Source: a virus. From it: a stretch of 31,380 bases of DNA. Shown piece after piece: positions 18,584-31,380 of this stretch. Made by a program: the position numbers and the translations under genes. The DNA lies in the IMG/VR virus record IMGVR_UViG_3300043426_000413, positions 1 to 31,380 of that record; one strand, 5' to 3'. Each line of letters begins with the position of its first letter. Positions within the stretch are counted from its first letter, which is position 1. The notes beneath the pieces were generated by a model. The model was not told the DNA's origin and searched no databases. It worked only from the letters and a program-made list of their open reading frames with translations.

Positions 18584-18605
18584 AATAATAGGCATAAAGT
18601 ATTAC
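18584..18605 (+). repeat. 22-bp site shared with the rep-side iteron cluster (candidate par/rep site)
   Basis: The 22 bases with core AGGCATAAAGTATTAC are identical to the reverse complement of 23445-23466 in the cluster beside the rep gene. The site lies 5 bases after the terminase stop and 34 bases before parA. It may be an operator or centromere for the partition proteins, or a Rep-binding iteron placed in the par promoter. Confidence 0.6.
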
Positions 18606-19683: not shown

Positions 19684-20412
19684 TCATTTAAAATATTGAA
19701 TTTTTCTACTATATAACCCAATCCAATATTTCCTAAATTTTTGCAATGAGGCTATCCAAGTTAAATCAAATTTTTCATTACGTGGAATAAACCAGTTATT
19801 AAGTCCAGTTCTGAAAATATTTTTATACCCATGTTTTATCATAAATCGGTATTTATCATGATTTATGATATGATCTTCTAGTAAGATAAGGCTTGGCTTC
19901 CATTTTTCTAAAGAAAAACCTTTAAACATCTCCATTTCATGTCCTTCAATATCCACTGATAAGAAATCAATCTTTTCTACTCCATTTTCGTCTAAAATTG
20001 AATCAAGGGTTCTGCATTCAACAAATTCTTTTCGTGAATTATTTATATTTATACCACGAGCAATTGTTTGATTATTTAAAGTTGAAAGAGCGCCTGCAAC
20101 CAGCATTGGAAGTTTATATCCTTGATTCTCAGGGCTAGAGCATGCCGATTGGATAACTAGCGCATTACGCTGTTCTCTTAGTAAAGAACAATATTCATTA
20201 AGAGGTTCAATGAGCAGACCATTCCATCCGATTTGTTCAAGATGCCAAGTCTGAGAATCTATTATAGGATGATTTGCTCCGACATCAACAAAGAACCCTG
20301 AATGCTTATTATTAAAAAATTCTCTTATAAATTTTTGCTCTAATTCTTTTTCGATACAAAAACGATAAGACTTTCTTTCAACAAAATCGATATTTTTTAT
20401 TTTTTTTAACAC
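19684..20412 (-). CDS. FkbM-family SAM-dependent methyltransferase
   Basis: A 242-aa protein carries the two hallmark segments of FkbM-type O-methyltransferases: a SAM-binding GFFVDVGANHP at about residues 39-49 and DFLSVDIEGHEMEMFKGF at 149-166, plus the LIEPLNE acid loop near 67. Such enzymes usually methylate sugars or polyketides; here a surface polysaccharide of the host is a reasonable guess. The start is GTG at 20412 without an obvious ribosome site. It is read towards the par operon, ending 5 bases from the partner gene's stop, and probably sits downstream of the recombinase gene in one transcript. It looks like an accessory cargo gene. Confidence 0.85.
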   Translation of the reverse strand: MLKKIKNIDFVERKSYRFCIEKELEQKFIREFFNNKHSGFFVDVGANHPIIDSQTWHLEQIGWNGLLIEPLNEYCSLLREQRNALVIQSACSSPENQGYKLPMLVAGALSTLNNQTIARGININNSRKEFVECRTLDSILDENGVEKIDFLSVDIEGHEMEMFKGFSLEKWKPSLILLEDHIINHDKYRFMIKHGYKNIFRTGLNNWFIPRNEKFDLTWIASLQKFRKYWIGLYSRKIQYFK

Positions 20413-20445: not shown

Positions 20446-20979
20446 TTACCATTTAGCTAAATATTCTTCCATCACATGCACGTCCGTAAAGTTAAGATAA
20501 ATTGCCGTTGTATTTAAGTTGTCATGGCCCAAGATTTTTTTTAGGCTGGCCAGCGATATATTTTTTTGTAGGGCTAAGGTCGCAAAGGTGTGACGAAGAA
20601 TGTGAGGAGTGACTTGCTCCACTATTTTTGCTCTGTTAGCGATATTTTTGATAATTTTTTGTACCTGTCTTACACCAACCGGAAAATTATTATTAATTGC
20701 GAAATAATGCTCAAGTAATGTTTGGACCCTCCTAGACATGGGCACTACCCTTTTTTTAGATTTTTTTCCATAAGGGCCCCCTTTTCCTGAAACACGAATT
20801 GATTTTTGTTGCCATAGAATTTGCTGCGGGTTAAGGTCACATAATTCAGAAACTCTTAGTCCCGTATCAAGCAACGTCCAAACAATTAGTTTTTCTTGCA
20901 TACTTTCGCAAGCCTGACAAAGTCGATCTGCCTCCTCGTTTCTTAACGGCTCCCTTACATACTGATAACCCATTCCCAT
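20446..20979 (-). CDS. Tyrosine recombinase, catalytic domain only
   Basis: The 177-aa protein contains the complete active site of a tyrosine recombinase: TGLRVSEL (Arg42), SGKGG (Lys66), HILRHTFAT (His126, Arg129), LGHDNLNTT (His152) and the Tyr161 nucleophile in AIYLNF. It lacks the usual N-terminal core-binding domain of XerC/D or phage integrases (about 300 aa or more). A stop lies just upstream in frame, so the start at 20979 (or 20973) is genuine unless the gene is truncated. Roles to consider are dimer resolution of the plasmid form, integration at a dif-like site, or inversion. It may be a decayed integrase, but all catalytic residues are intact. Confidence 0.88.
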   Translation of the reverse strand: MGMGYQYVREPLRNEEADRLCQACESMQEKLIVWTLLDTGLRVSELCDLNPQQILWQQKSIRVSGKGGPYGKKSKKRVVPMSRRVQTLLEHYFAINNNFPVGVRQVQKIIKNIANRAKIVEQVTPHILRHTFATLALQKNISLASLKKILGHDNLNTTAIYLNFTDVHVMEEYLAKW

Positions 20980-21904: not shown

Positions 21905-22780
21905 CTAATCTTCTAGAGTAAGTAAATCTTGATCCGATAGACCAGTTAATTCCTTGATAACTGCAGGGTTAAACCTTTTGTCTAGCATTTTTTTAGCAAT
22001 AACAAAATCTTCTTCTCTTCGGCCCTTTTGTTCTAGTTGTTGTGCTAGTGTCATAATATCCTCTCTATAGTTGGGTAAGTTATCAGCTAATGTTGAGTAA
22101 AATTGCTCGAAATTCTTAGACTCACCCTCTTGGCTTATATAATACAATAAACTGCTAAATTGGTCATGTGTCAATAGGTTCTTAGCCAATTGCAAAGCTA
22201 TATCTTGTATAAATTCCAGTGCGTCTCGTTTATGAATGTTCTTTTGTATTAACTCTAGTATTGCTATCCCTCTATGTTTCCGTAGCTCATCATCGGGAAT
22301 AACAGTAATATCAATGAGGGGGTAAGGTTTTAAGAAAGTCTCCTGGGCTAATTCTTTATTTTCAAAGCAATCCATAATGTCTGTGCTAAATGGGTACGGA
22401 CTTTTTTTCCCACGATAAAAAAGCAAAGGAATCACGATGGGTAAAGTTTGGTGCCCTTGGTCCAAATGCTGTTTCATAATAGCGATTTGGTAGCGCAATA
22501 GTTTGAAAGGTGTTAATTTTCTTGGTGTCGTTTCATGCTCGATGAGCGTATAAATATAGCCTTGCGTTCCGGCTATTTTGACCGAGTAAAGAATATCTGA
22601 AAAATGATGTTTTAAATCTTTTTCTACAAAAGAACCCGGTTTAAATCTTAAAGTAGGAAAATCACATTGTTTTTTAATTCTTTCAGGTAGATATGTTTCT
22701 AGAAAAACCTTTGCTTTACTAATATCCGCTAAAAAATTTCTAAATAGTCGATCATGTGGATCGTGAATTGTTATAGTCAC
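21905..22780 (-). CDS. Rpn family nuclease/putative transposase (PD-(D/E)XK)
   Basis: This 291-aa protein has the look of the recombination-promoting nuclease family: HDPHDRLFRNFL at the start, then LRFKPGSFVEKDLKHHFSDILY with the catalytic Asp, YIYTLIEHETTPRK (strand with the catalytic Glu; the common form is EH-Q/K-S), and FKLLRYQIAIMKQHL. The tail carries the short AKKML...VIKELTGLSDQDLL module. Family members promote RecA-independent DNA exchange or act in phage defence. The start lies in a short T-rich stretch without a strong ribosome site. It looks intact, unlike the duplicated tail modules downstream. Confidence 0.87.
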   Translation of the reverse strand: MTITIHDPHDRLFRNFLADISKAKVFLETYLPERIKKQCDFPTLRFKPGSFVEKDLKHHFSDILYSVKIAGTQGYIYTLIEHETTPRKLTPFKLLRYQIAIMKQHLDQGHQTLPIVIPLLFYRGKKSPYPFSTDIMDCFENKELAQETFLKPYPLIDITVIPDDELRKHRGIAILELIQKNIHKRDALEFIQDIALQLAKNLLTHDQFSSLLYYISQEGESKNFEQFYSTLADNLPNYREDIMTLAQQLEQKGRREEDFVIAKKMLDKRFNPAVIKELTGLSDQDLLTLED

Positions 22781-23389: not shown

Positions 23390-23400
23390 TCCTTTTAATC

Positions 23401-23630
23401 GTAATACTATTAATACTTTATGCCTATTAAGCCTATTATTAATCGTAATACTTTATGCCTATTATTCTTATAATACCTATTTTACCTATTACGAATAGTA
23501 TTAAAAGTAATACCTTTAATAAAGTATGATCAATATGAATGTTATTACTATTCATAAAGTATGATATAGGCATAAAGTATGAATAGTAATAACTGTAATA
23601 CCATTAATACTATTCATACTTTATTACCTA
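23401..23630. repeat. Iteron-like repeat cluster next to rep (candidate replication origin)
   Basis: About 230 AT-rich bases between the rep stop and the unknown gene at 23108. They contain many copies, in both orientations, of a core ATACTTTATGCCTATTA (23413-23429 and 23447-23463; inverted near 23567-23580) and of TACTATTCATA or its complement (around 23546, 23580 and 23608). The copy at 23445-23466 is identical over 22 bases to a site before parA, and TAATACTATTCATAC recurs near 28134. Such mixed direct and inverted iterons are typical of Rep-dependent plasmid origins or centromeres. The last bases overlap the rep stop. Confidence 0.7.
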
Positions 23631-25291
23631 TTTCTACGCAGGATGTCCTTAAGATTTCTAACTTGCTTTAATCCCTCATGTTTTTTCTCTTCTGACATAG
23701 GTTGATTATCAGGGATAGATGATACATAAAATATTTGGCCTGTTTTAGCCTCACTGTTCAACGAACTCAAGCACATGTTAGGGAAGGGTAGTGATAAATC
23801 AACGCTCGCTACATTAGGCTTATAGCCCGTGTTCAATGACTGGTTGGATTTTGTGCATTCATTCGACGCCATGGGCATGTGATATTCGGATCGCTTCGAT
23901 TCTTCCCATGATTTTTCAGCGAGATCCCTTTTCTTCTTCTGCTCGATGCCATATTCACAATGATTAGAAAACCCTTTCGGCGTTGCCCAAATCTTTGCGG
24001 CAAGCAGCTTCAATATCCTGTTCAGACGATGTGTGAAGCCTAAAACGCCGCTGTGTTGCTCTTCGTTAACGATGGAAAACTTCATCTGCTCGAGGATCTC
24101 TCTGGGGTTTGAAAACCGCAATCCGCCCTTTGTTAACCCCTCAAAAGCTTTCTTCACTATGGTGTATTGGGTAGGGTTCAATTTTTTTGCAGAAAAATTA
24201 ATATCTTCGTCGCTTGAATTCACCCGGATGATAGGGAATAGTCCTGAGCATTGAATGTAGTTATTAATATTTACAATATTGGAATTGGTAACAACCTCTG
24301 ATTCTGGTCTCCGTTCGTTTTGTTCATCAAAACTAATATCCCTAATTTTTTCTTTCTTAACGGGTGTAGGGAATACACTTACATTGCTGCTATTATTAAT
24401 AATATTATTTTCTGTATTTATTTCTTCTATATAGGATTCGGCCCTTTTGTCTGTTTCAGAAACGGCCCTTTTGTCTGTTTCAGAAGTAGACATTTCGGCA
24501 TTTTTGTTTAAATTTTGGTCATGTTCTGAATAGTTATCAACAGGTAACCCGCCTTCAATCCACCCGTTTTCAGCAATGTGTTCTTTGATTTTTTTTATAA
24601 AATTTTCAGAAAGATGAAAATGGGACTTAGGTATCCCTTCGCGCCTAAATACATTAATAGAGACAAAATCTAGCTTAGAGATATTATTGGAATCGGAAAT
24701 CTTACCTATATATCGTTCTATCGTTTTAGTGCTGACCATTGCAAATTTAGCTAGCTCTTTATGGGTTATTGACACCCATCTTTTCCCAGATTTCTCGATT
24801 TTAGTATTCATAAATCCATAAAATATTCTTAATAAAACGAGAGAGCTCATGGTGCCGGTATACGAATGAAGTAAATCAAAAAGCTTGTGATTCAAAGGGA
24901 CGAAATTAATCTTTTTACTTATTCCAATAAATAGACTTTTTATACCTTGAGATAAACCTAATTTGACTGAAATCAATCCGGCCTTTTCCAGAATTGATAA
25001 AAGGGAAGATGTCTTTTTGTAAAAAAAGCCAAACCAAGAGGATATTTTTTTGATATTGGTAATAATTATTTTTTCGCCATTATGCAAGACAGCATATTTC
25101 TGCCAGAAGAATCTGAGCTTGGAAAATAGCAGGGAGGCTTCGGAATTTCCTGTGATTTTGTTCAAAAACTCAAACTGTTCGATATTTAGATAGAAAAGTT
25201 TCTCAAATGGTATTGATGTTTTTTGATAAATATTGATATAATTTGATGGATCATATGAAATTGGAGTTGATTTTTGAGCTAAATTAATCAT
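23624..25291 (-). CDS. Putative plasmid replication initiator protein
   Basis: This 555-aa protein is probably the DNA-binding initiator. Two winged-helix/HTH-like segments are visible: IKKISSWFGFFYKKTSSLLSIL then LEKAGLISV (about residues 79-110), and ITHKELAKFAMVSTKTIERY (about 175-195). A polar linker follows (with a tandem SETDKRA repeat), then a conserved-looking LNPTQYTIVKKAFEGL region. Adjacent iteron-like DNA at its 3' end and a complex repeat leader at its 5' end fit a copy-controlled rep gene. The start ATG 25291 has AAGGA five bases away. A phage replisome organiser is the alternative. I could not assign it to a named Rep family. Confidence 0.65.
   Translation of the reverse strand: MINLAQKSTPISYDPSNYINIYQKTSIPFEKLFYLNIEQFEFLNKITGNSEASLLFSKLRFFWQKYAVLHNGEKIIITNIKKISSWFGFFYKKTSSLLSILEKAGLISVKLGLSQGIKSLFIGISKKINFVPLNHKLFDLLHSYTGTMSSLVLLRIFYGFMNTKIEKSGKRWVSITHKELAKFAMVSTKTIERYIGKISDSNNISKLDFVSINVFRREGIPKSHFHLSENFIKKIKEHIAENGWIEGGLPVDNYSEHDQNLNKNAEMSTSETDKRAVSETDKRAESYIEEINTENNIINNSSNVSVFPTPVKKEKIRDISFDEQNERRPESEVVTNSNIVNINNYIQCSGLFPIIRVNSSDEDINFSAKKLNPTQYTIVKKAFEGLTKGGLRFSNPREILEQMKFSIVNEEQHSGVLGFTHRLNRILKLLAAKIWATPKGFSNHCEYGIEQKKKRDLAEKSWEESKRSEYHMPMASNECTKSNQSLNTGYKPNVASVDLSLPFPNMCLSSLNSEAKTGQIFYVSSIPDNQPMSEEKKHEGLKQVRNLKDILRRNR
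24438..24486 (-). repeat. Tandem repeat of about 24 bp inside rep
   Basis: The plus-strand unit GGCCCTTTTGTCTGTTTCAG occurs twice in a row and encodes a duplicated Ser-Glu-Thr-Asp-Lys-Arg-Ala in the polar linker of the initiator. It keeps the frame, so it is a length-variable linker and not a disruption. Confidence 0.7.
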
Positions 25292-25645
25292 TTTTCCTTG
25301 TTTCCTTATTTCCTTTTGATGGGGTTATATGAAATGGGAGTTGGTTTTTTGAGCTAAATTGATCATTTTTCCTATTTTCTTTGATTGGGATATATGGAAC
25401 TTGGTTAGTTTTTTGAGCTAAATTAATCATTTTTCCTTGTTTCCTTTGATTGGATCATATGAAAAATTAATCATTTACCTTATTTCCTTTGATGGGGTTG
25501 TATGGAACTTGGTTGAGCTAAAATTAATATTTTTTATATGGTCATATGTAATTAGGGTTATTTTTTGAACTAAATTAATCATTTTTCCTGTTTCCTTTGA
25601 TGTTTGTGTGGAATGGGTTGGTTATTTTTTGTACTAAATTAATCC
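25276..25645 (-). repeat. Degenerate tandem copies of the rep translation start region
   Basis: Seven diverged units spaced about 44-75 bases apart share the plus-strand core GAGCTAAATTAATCAT followed by TTTTTCCTTGTTTCC. Cores lie at 25276, 25351, 25415, 25464, 25514, 25567 and 25631. Read on the minus strand each is a ribosome site (AAGGAAAA type) plus ATGATTAATTTAGCTC, that is, the start of rep itself (MINLAQ). Four upstream units keep an ATG. No long gene lies in 25292-25755; this array and the elements listed next fill it. Confidence 0.8.
25284..25430 (-). CDS. Possible 48-aa leader ORF coupled to rep
   Basis: Starting in the repeat unit at 25430 with a good ribosome site (CAAGGAAAAATG pattern), this frame encodes MINLAQKTNQVPYIP and so on for 48 residues. 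Its TAA (25286-25284) overlaps the rep ATG region by 8 bases. Its first seven residues equal those of Rep because the unit is a copy of the rep start. An upstream frame whose stop overlaps the initiator start is the layout of translational-coupling copy control in several plasmids. It may equally be a by-product of the repeats. Confidence 0.4.
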   Translation of the reverse strand: MINLAQKTNQVPYIPIKENRKNDQFSSKNQLPFHITPSKGNKETRKND

Positions 25646-25665
25646 TTTTACTTATAGTAAGTTTT

Positions 25666-25685
25666 GTTTGTTTGTTTGTTTGTTT
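25666..25685. repeat. GTTT microsatellite (five units)
   Basis: Five perfect GTTT units inside a T-rich stretch upstream of the rep leader array. Such runs slip easily and could vary leader length. Confidence 0.8.
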
Positions 25686-25718: not shown

Positions 25719-25743
25719 ATCCCCGGACTCTTAATCCGGGGAT
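25719..25743. terminator. Strong hairpin between recT-like gene and rep leader
   Basis: ATCCCCGGA, loop CTCTTAA, TCCGGGGAT: a perfect 9-base stem, GC-rich against an AT-rich background, 13 bases past the RecT-like stop. There is no clean T tract on either side (TTCTTTCATT on the plus strand), so it could be a terminator, a stability hairpin at the 3' end of the recombination mRNA, or a Rep-associated stem. Confidence 0.6.
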
Positions 25744-27711: not shown

Positions 27712-28005
27712 TTAACCCGTACTTTGGTCCTCCTCTTTGTTTAATTTTGTATTGATTCTTTTTGGTCTTACTTTTGCCATCTTTTTACGATCTTCAAAAC
27801 ACTCGTAAGGCTGTTGTTCCACCCATTCAAAAAATTCGTCCTCTTTAATAACGATTAGGCCACCGACCTTCCTTACTATTTTATCCAGCCCATTCCGACT
27901 TGCACTTTGCAAAAGTTTTCTAAAGTGTTTTATAGAGGGGAAATCGTGATGTTTGTCCCAATCTTGTAAAGCGATGTATTTAATTCTCTTTGGCTGTGTA
28001 TTCAT
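27712..28005 (-). CDS. AlpA/excisionase-like DNA-binding protein 1
   Basis: The 97-aa protein contains a MerR/excisionase-type winged helix: LQDWDKHHDFPSIKHFRKLL, GLDKIVRKVGG and then LIVIKEDEFFEWVEQQ, the pattern in which the wing ends in an (I/V)-x-E-x-x-F-x-x-W motif. It is related to the two proteins encoded at 28159 and 28385. A basic tail (RKKMAKVRPKRINTK) extends beyond them. It probably regulates transcription of the early arm or assists the recombinase. A perfect 20-bp palindrome lies 37 bases upstream of its start. Confidence 0.7.
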   Translation of the reverse strand: MNTQPKRIKYIALQDWDKHHDFPSIKHFRKLLQSASRNGLDKIVRKVGGLIVIKEDEFFEWVEQQPYECFEDRKKMAKVRPKRINTKLNKEEDQSTG

Positions 28006-28061: not shown

Positions 28062-28081
28062 ATTTTATCTTTATTACTATT

Positions 28082-28117
28082 CATAATCGGCATAATCGGC
28101 ATAATCGGCATAATCGG
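28082..28117. repeat. Four tandem 9-bp repeats (CATAATCGG)
   Basis: Four exact CATAATCGG units, followed by a partial CATAAGG. The block is flanked by TTACTATTCATA on the left and GGTAATACTATTCATACC on the right. The same TACTATTCATA motif occurs in the rep-side iteron cluster, so this is likely a binding array for Rep, a Par protein or a local regulator. Confidence 0.8.
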
Positions 28118-28158
28118 CATAAGGTAATAAAGGTAATACTATTCATACCATTTCGTTT

Positions 28159-28392
28159 TCACCCAGCATCAATTTCTCTATAAACTCTTTTCGGATCGAT
28201 TTTTGGTGCATCTAGCCACTGAAAGAAAGCATCTTCATCAATCAGAAGTTTTCTTCCAAGAAATTTTACTGCGGGGCTTAGGCCGTTTTTTTCTCGTGTG
28301 TCCAGCAAGTTCTTTAATGACCTAGGAGTAATAAAAGGGTTCCTCTTTAAAAACTCCTGTTTCGATAAATAATTTCTTTCTTTTTTATGCAT
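28159..28392 (-). CDS. AlpA/excisionase-like DNA-binding protein 2
   Basis: This 77-aa protein has the same plan as its neighbours: YLSKQEFLKRNPFITPRSLKNLL, NGLSPAVKFLGRK, LLIDEDAFFQWLD. It starts at ATG 28392 inside the last codons of protein 3 (8-base overlap), so the two are co-translated. Basic residues cluster in the recognition region. Three such proteins in a row suggest duplicated regulators with different operators. Excisionase activity for the recombinase is possible. Confidence 0.7.
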   Translation of the reverse strand: MHKKERNYLSKQEFLKRNPFITPRSLKNLLDTREKNGLSPAVKFLGRKLLIDEDAFFQWLDAPKIDPKRVYREIDAG

Positions 28393-29868: not shown

Positions 29869-31380
29869 ATGAATTTAATAAACAAATCCTTTTCACAGAT
29901 ACTTTGCATAGCAAGGGATCTCGGATTGAAGGCAAGTAAAGAACATATAGAACCGGGTACTAATGTATTTTCAGATGTAGAAGCATATGCAAATTCTCTG
30001 TACCAAAATGAACAAGAAATAACTCCTAACGATCAAAATATTCGCGAAGAAAAGGCAAATCTTAGACGACTATTAACACTGATGATAGCGTGGCATTACA
30101 GGTCGTCTTTTATTGAAGAGAAATTTAGAAATCATATTAAATATAAAGCAGAACTCGATAAAAGAGACCGCCGATTAGTAAACACGGGGCTTGCTATCCT
30201 GTGCTATTTTTTATGCGCACGATCAAATGATCAGATGAAAACGATTTCACTTTTGTCAGAAATCAAAAGCAACATCATTCTAAATGATGATGATTATATG
30301 TTTATGCTTGCTTTATCAAAAGCAGACATTATAAAAATTGTTTATGACCAAATTGAAAAAATAAATGAGTTTGAAAATGAACAATACAAATCAACATCAT
30401 ACATCCATGAAAATTTTAATGGGATAGCTGAAGCAGGGCAAGCGATAGAAGGGTTTGTAGTCACCACTAGAAAGAAAAAAGTAGCCCAGGTTCTTTCTAT
30501 TTTGATCGGGCTTATCTCTGCAAGCGCTTCTGCCGCTGTGCTATCTACGGGTGTCATTGCCATGCTAGGAAGTGGCCCATTAGGTTTATCTCTAGCAGTA
30601 ATGACACTTATATTTACATTTTATGCCAACGCAAAATTTTTAAATAAAGCGATGCCTGACTTTATATTAAAACTAATGCGACAAGGCTCTATTACTGAAT
30701 ATGTAGACAAAGAAGGTAACAGAAGACAGCTTTCATTCTTTAAAAAATTTGTGACAGTTCCATTGACGCTCCTAGGCTCATTGTCAATTAGCGTGTTGAC
30801 TACAACATTTACCATAAAATCACTCACATTTTTGCTAATGCATTTTGTGCCTGCAATGATTGCTGTCCCTTATCTGATCCCCGCGATAGCTATCACTGGA
30901 GCTGTTTGTTTAGGAATTTCAACATTCGTTGTCTGTGCCGCGGCTTCTGTGAAAACGATTAAATCATATGAGCAATCAAAAGGGCTGAAAGAATGGTTTC
31001 AATCATTAAAGGATTTATCTTTAGCTGAAAAATTTAAATTAGCTTTTAAAGCGATTATTCTGCCAATTTGTATATTTTCTCTAGGATTTTTGGAATACCT
31101 TCATGCGTTCCGAGTGATTCCTGTTTTAGGAATAGCCGGCGCTGCGGTTGCTGGAGTTTTTTGCTTTATCGGGCGATTTTCTTTTATTACGCAAGGATTA
31201 CAAAAGCTTACGTCTGCTATTTCTAATAGGTTTAATACACGAGGATCTTTTTTAGAAAAAGTATTTTATTACTCTAGCTTGCTATGGCAATCAGTCGTCT
31301 CTGGCGCATTAATTTGGTCTCAGCCTCATTCTGGTGCATCCGTTGCCGCGATCGGGGGGGCAGTTAATTCATTTGGATCC
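29869..31380 (+). CDS. Large multi-pass membrane protein (continues at 1-338 through the join)
   Basis: The frame has 504 codons up to the right edge and about 98 more at the left edge, giving roughly 602 aa. The first 200 residues are soluble and helical (RDLGLKASKEHIEPG; LRRLLTLMIAWHYRSSF; KADIIKIVYDQIEKINEFEN). From about residue 203 come some eight hydrophobic segments in three blocks (VLSILIGLISASASAAVLS; LTFLLMHFVPAMIAVPYLIP; IILPICIFSLGFLEYL), then the polar C-terminal tail. I recognise no family. It lies between ssb and the nuclease in the phage operon. Secreted-effector, lysis, exclusion or membrane-remodelling roles can be imagined but none is shown. The ATG follows GAGAATTTAGAAA, a weak ribosome site. 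Confidence 0.8.
   Translation, partial: MNLINKSFSQILCIARDLGLKASKEHIEPGTNVFSDVEAYANSLYQNEQEITPNDQNIREEKANLRRLLTLMIAWHYRSSFIEEKFRNHIKYKAELDKRDRRLVNTGLAILCYFLCARSNDQMKTISLLSEIKSNIILNDDDYMFMLALSKADIIKIVYDQIEKINEFENEQYKSTSYIHENFNGIAEAGQAIEGFVVTTRKKKVAQVLSILIGLISASASAAVLSTGVIAMLGSGPLGLSLAVMTLIFTFYANAKFLNKAMPDFILKLMRQGSITEYVDKEGNRRQLSFFKKFVTVPLTLLGSLSISVLTTTFTIKSLTFLLMHFVPAMIAVPYLIPAIAITGAVCLGISTFVVCAAASVKTIKSYEQSKGLKEWFQSLKDLSLAEKFKLAFKAIILPICIFSLGFLEYLHAFRVIPVLGIAGAAVAGVFCFIGRFSFITQGLQKLTSAISNRFNTRGSFLEKVFYYSSLLWQSVVSGALIWSQPHSGASVAAIGGAVNSFGS
31340..31380. repeat. Terminal direct repeat, right copy (circular join)
   Basis: This is the right-hand copy of the 41-base overlap. The single mismatch changes a codon of the membrane-protein gene that crosses the join: GCA (Ala) here, TCA (Ser) at the left end. 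The mismatch lies beside a poly-G run, where sequencing or assembly error is plausible. Confidence 0.9.

Follow-up and report, generated by a model that had tools for sequence, protein, structure and literature searches.

Described control systems and the present locus

Translation of the initiator gene repA of plasmid R1 (IncFII; copA/tap/repA) is coupled to that of a short leader frame, tap, and the antisense RNA CopA acts by stopping tap translation (PMC5717011). An equivalent control operates in IncL/M plasmids (repB-repA), where RepB and RNAI are used (PMC12365149). Coupling of genes through an overlap of stop and start codons is widespread (PMC6728339). Iteron plasmids carry same-direction repeats beside a winged-helix initiator gene; the iterons are 17 to 22 bp in length and exceptionally 76 bp, as in R478 (IncHI2) (PMC4980987).

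The rep gene described here lies in a virus record of 31,380 bases (IMGVR_UViG_3300043426_000413, positions 1 to 31,380), analyzed at full length and termed the window, and is preceded by copies of its own translation start region. As in R1 and IncL/M, a short leader frame stands before the initiator gene, the initiators being likened by this leader layout only. The R1 tap-repA arrangement, in which a leader frame with its own Shine-Dalgarno (SD) tract stops at the rep start, is matched by a 48-aa frame beginning at 25430. The coupled initiator translation and the antisense RNA over the leader that characterize R1 and IncL/M would also apply here, although the antisense RNA of the present element is predicted from a promoter and a terminator guess. 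While R1 and IncL/M have one leader frame and mask rep by leader structure, the present locus has three chained frames, built from copies of the initiator's own start, and no masking leader structure. The array resembles those of iteron plasmids, including R478 (PMC4980987), in having same-direction repeats beside a winged-helix initiator gene, yet its spacing is irregular, and its repeat includes both the ribosome site and the start codon of the initiator gene, where most of the conservation lies.

Repeats upstream of rep are also found in Legionella antarctica plasmid pTUM19329-2, which encodes a distant relative of the initiator (56 residues matched; 20% identity in the alignment). These five to six 16-24-nt repeats ATTTTTGTGTCTCTTA, at 34/35-nt steps or multiples (L003:2838-3092), lie away from the start codon and, unlike the present array, include no start-region copies. 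A promoter and a terminator-like hairpin are located between the pTUM19329-2 repeats and rep. No paper on tandem copies of an initiator start site was found in a literature search outside which most subscription journals lay. The claim of an earlier note, that no described control device is built this way, stands for the multiplied copies; however, coupling of a leader peptide to rep with an antisense RNA is known (PMC5717011, PMC12365149), as are long iterons (PMC4980987).

The array of rep start regions

Seven tandem units occupy about 25240-25664 of the minus strand, the last being the rep start itself and the other six upstream copies. The start-site anchors are 25646, 25582, 25531, 25474, 25430, 25366 and 25291 (rep), with spacings of 64, 51, 57, 44, 64 and 75. 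The units and the gene are as follows:

25601..25664, minus strand: unit 1, outermost, ATG changed to AGG, no SD, anchor 25646
25547..25600, minus strand: unit 2, ATG 25582
25493..25546, minus strand: unit 2b, degenerate, no SD and no ATG, anchor 25531
25449..25492, minus strand: unit 3, shortened, ATG 25474
25385..25448, minus strand: unit 4, ATG 25430
25310..25384, minus strand: unit 5, ATG 25366, opening a 13-aa frame that ends at 25325
25240..25309, minus strand: unit 6, the SD tract, ATG (25291) and first codons of rep itself
23624..25291, minus strand: rep, 555-aa winged-helix replication initiator, homologous over aa 20-469 to initiators encoded beside parAB, members of which match PHROG families

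The array has a TRF score of 225. The 17-mer AAATTAATCATTTTTCC occurs 8 times at up to 3 mismatches against 1.25 expected, a count reached in none of 100 shuffles. When the rep start region is aligned locally to the 500 nt that precede it, z is 21.5, compared to -1.7 to 2.7 for 15 control gene starts (seven from relatives or distant plasmid homologues, eight from other window genes); rep is, thus, the only one of 16 gene starts tested with upstream copies of its own start region. The repeat unit was searched for elsewhere and not found. These results bear out the seven diverged copies that had been proposed upstream of rep; the limits given for them, 25276-25645, enclose array sequence, but the array extends slightly past both. 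Both SD and ATG are present in five of the seven units and absent from the two at 25646 and 25531, in agreement with the earlier count of four upstream units that keep an ATG, each of which has an AGG-containing tract.

Conservation within the units runs from the SD tract to about codon 6 and is at chance level beyond. In a gap-tolerant 14-mer comparison with unit 4, distances are lowest between about -15 and +17 relative to the ATG and reach chance level from +18 onward. The SD tract is the best-kept part among the ATG-bearing units: the 14-mer at -15, AGGAAACAAGGAAA, averages 0.25 edits in these five units against a null near 4.4. The five ATG-bearing units have SD pairing energies of -4.2 to -6.4 kcal/mol, compared to -0.6 to -1.0 for the other two. 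This pattern fits selection on translation initiation, while a protein-binding site of about 35 bp would be expected to look alike.

A neutral origin, in which slippage or recombination duplicated the surroundings of the rep start and the copies now decay without function, is unlikely. It would accommodate the wide divergence of the units, the two dead units, the drift in spacing and frames and the lack of an array in distant relatives, and a tetranucleotide run that adjoins the array (25663-25685) signals local slippage. The decay is uneven, however, with SD and start kept and the remainder of the unit at chance. A compact genome of 31 kb, with genes for RecT and an exonuclease, has also retained about 370 extra bases, and tests of frame chaining and helical phasing (below) each depart from chance, both post hoc.

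Iterons usually take the form of direct repeats upstream of rep, and the units may instead be putative Rep binding sites for origin function or autoregulation, with the start-site appearance a by-product of location. The last putative iteron overlaps the rep start, so bound Rep would limit its own expression. This explanation, which we consider possible but somewhat unlikely, draws on the several same-direction direct repeats next to rep, the winged-helix family of the Rep protein, the iteron-like repeats upstream of rep in the distantly related L. antarctica pTUM19329-2 and the existence of iterons up to 76 bp in length (PMC4980987). When unit 2b is left out, the spacings (75, 64, 44, 108, 64) are helically phased at P 0.003-0.008, in a post hoc test where the value 64 occurs twice among the five spacings, perhaps not independently; once unit 2b is included, the phasing is not significant (P about 0.15). 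The irregular spacing speaks against iterons, as does the conserved part itself, which is the ribosome-contact stretch with the SD included. Unit 3 is missing half of the 24-bp core, the rest of the window holds no copy save one 2-mismatch 17-mer, and in three nearer relatives rep is not preceded by an array. DnaA boxes are not in excess, the window having 9 sites at one mismatch where 9.15 are expected, and none lies near the array. Such boxes are not universal among iteron plasmids. An iteron array would make this an odd but ordinary origin.

Leader frames and a proposed translational coupling

Three leader frames connect the units to rep:

25475..25582, minus strand: leader frame 1, 35 aa, its TAA directly abutting the unit 3 ATG
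25427..25474, minus strand: leader frame 2, 15 aa, its TGA overlapping the unit 4 ATG (ATGA)
25284..25430, minus strand: leader frame 3, 48 aa, crossing unit 5 and stopping within the rep start ATGATTAA

The 48-aa (25430) and 13-aa (25366) frames had been described previously and are as stated, the former overlapping rep through a TAA stop (25286-25284) that falls within ATGATTAA, two bases beyond the rep ATG on its 3' side. The 35-aa (25582) and 15-aa (25474) frames, missed in the earlier note, complete an unbroken three-frame chain into rep. Frame 3 reads through unit 5, where ATGATC is without the in-frame TAA found in other units. Since ATGATTAA has stops in both other frames, the chain geometry partly comes with the unit. 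In simulation, a perfect 65-nt array gives a full chain, while arrays of units shortened or lengthened to another frame class give none. Under random decay of a 65-nt consensus unit, chains of at least three frames arise in 4.1% of cases with 9 substitutions per unit and in 1.6% with 12, and under shuffling the openness of the two long leader frames has probabilities of 0.084 and 0.065. The departure of the chain from chance is suggestive and, the test being post hoc, not strong. Conservation of a leader peptide is ruled out by the frames and sequences, which differ among units.

The leader RNA folds with less structure than shuffles (z=+0.81), and no stable structure covers the rep start, which is, thus, not masked. 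The plus-strand RNA is structured (z -3.1 to -3.8), but only as judged against shuffles that did not keep the repeats, and for this reason it is given no weight here. Two features could delimit an antisense RNA:

25213..25242, plus strand: promoter-like TTGATG-18-TATAAT with a TG extended -10, putatively reading antisense across the array
25719..25743, plus strand: terminator-like hairpin, a possible end of the antisense RNA

The former is the only promoter-like site of at least 10/12 with a TG extended -10 in the window. Promoter-like sites are not in excess in the region (4 against 6.3 expected), so the antisense promoter is a lead only. On the minus strand, no convincing promoter was found just upstream of the array, where the best -10 is TATAAG near 25651 with a poor -35. 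The rep gene may be read through from the recT operon, which would make the array intercistronic.

The best reading of the array, to which we assign a probability of about 38%, is a multiplied device for translational coupling of leader frames to rep, similar to R1 tap-repA and possibly with an antisense RNA. It builds on the observed repeats, the frames with their stop/start geometry, the conservation of the start region, the unstructured leader and the initiator homology; we infer that the leader is part of the rep transcript, that it is translated, that ribosomes restart within it and that an antisense RNA exists. The array would be the leader of the rep message, born by tandem duplication of the translation start region of rep. 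After loading at unit 2, 3 or 4, ribosomes would read through 35, 15 or 48 codons, terminate only a few bases from the ATG of the next unit and restart there, until they arrive at the rep ATG. As ATGATTAA stops both other frames, most out-of-register frames that enter a start site would end on it. Rep synthesis would then require leader translation or be buffered by it, which may tune the replication frequency of the element, and a plus-strand antisense RNA could target the leader in its entirety. Of the several options offered earlier, the one that couples leader translation to Rep synthesis fits best, given the abutting frames and the conservation from SD to codon 6, while iterons and neutral duplication stay live.

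Several observations count against coupling. The SD of rep equals the others and is unmasked; unlike in R1 and IncL/M, coupling is unneeded for access. Neither sequence nor frame is shared among the leader peptides, two of the six upstream units are dead, the unit 5 frame ends after 13 codons, short of rep, and no good promoter is found for a dedicated rep leader transcript.

A stricter form of the coupling device is a ribosome relay, in which each frame would stop on the next start, the repeat number would serve as a tuning knob and one antisense RNA would pair with all units; in this full form the proposal is improbable. If true, the relay would extend leader-translation control of replication beyond the enterobacterial IncFII/IncI/IncL-M plasmids, to an O-like or winged-helix initiator gene in a phage-plasmid of intracellular bacteria. 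The strength of control could evolve via gain and loss of repeat units, and the locus would offer a cheap test system for chained termination-reinitiation. That the extra start sites act instead as decoys, titrating ribosomes or an antisense RNA away from rep, is very improbable. Five SD-ATG sites stand on one message and an antisense promoter is possible; however, sites located in cis on one message cannot draw off free ribosomes to any noticeable degree, and stop-start junctions hand ribosomes on to rep, not away from it. The ribosome titration suggested in the earlier note found no specific support.

The initiator, its genomic setting and a second repeat region

The 555-aa rep product alone has no significant match in Pfam, PHROG or NCBIfam. 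Through a profile that included distant Legionella plasmid proteins, three full-length relatives are reached in genomes of one gammaproteobacterial order, each with adjoining parA/parB genes (3/3). They align to residues 20-469 of the window Rep at 24-29% identity. Members of the family match winged-helix Pfam models and PHROG replication initiation families (best E 2.7e-12); the assignment as an initiator is well supported via the family, the window protein itself being without a direct PHROG match. Single-sequence structure prediction of Rep gave a mean pLDDT of 34.8. Close relatives of rep were found neither in viral contigs (by rep alone or by profiles), genome contigs or phage records nor among 16 genomes of the order of Aquirickettsiella. 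The distant relatives (24-29% identity), in which rep is intact, lack the array, the outcome that the earlier note had named as a refutation; the device is thus not general in the family, but its function in the present element is not settled by this absence. The last repeat unit encodes residues 1-16 of the window Rep, and the first 16-19 residues have no counterpart in the relatives, whose start falls 15-20 residues later. With homology beginning at about residue 20, the repeat thus encodes only an N-terminal extension that the relatives lack.

Within the linker-coding part of rep is a perfect 24-nt tandem duplication, CGGCCCTTTTGTCTGTTTCAGAAA (24439-24485). The origin iterons of lambda O sit in a comparable linker-coding place. 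In the relatives, the stretch from the partition genes to rep contains palindromes TTCGGT(C/G)ACCGAA (L029:2030-2189, L030:1656-1788), which are probable ParB or operator sites.

The ends of the window (positions 1-41 and 31340-31380) have 41 bases in common with one mismatch, so the window is probably a complete circular molecule. The record is classed as linear, despite its circular look. The window encodes a podovirus-type head module (portal PF12236, terminase), an SSB, a RecT/exonuclease pair and ParA with a small partner gene. Its XerC-like integrase (20446-20979) is 75-85% identical to plasmid genes of Cardinium, Piscirickettsia and Megaira, a match that points to exchange among plasmids of unrelated intracellular bacteria, and an Rpn-like PD-(D/E)XK gene is 77% identical to a gene of Candidatus Aquirickettsiella gammari. 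The window is best read as a phage-plasmid with a predicted Diplorickettsiaceae-like (Rickettsiella-like) host. The cargo that points to the host comprises an FkbM-type methyltransferase gene and the Rpn-like gene (19684-20412, 21905-22780). Phages related through the portal protein (66-54% identity), several of them fragments, do not carry the present rep; a RecT-guided search led to other phage-plasmids, with no usable comparison, and Rfam gave no match in the window.

A second repeat region, unrelated to the array, lies at the 3' end of rep:

23395..23626, no strand assigned: repeats of the motifs TACTTTATGCCTAT and TACTATTCATACTTTATG, a candidate partition site or origin

The motif TACTTTATGCCTAT recurs upstream of parA at 18588 (18588-18601) and, in a weaker form, near 28113. 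Its recurrence at parA points to partition; in that case, sites for Rep itself would have yet to be identified, so the iteron reading stays live. Both TACTTTATGCCTAT and GTAATACTATTCATAC are common to 23395-23626, 18588-18601 and, more weakly, 28078-28150, and the three are likely partition or origin sites. The last of these lies within a non-coding gap between small early genes (one ending at 28005, the next starting at 28159) and also carries 4.6 exact copies of CATAATCGG.
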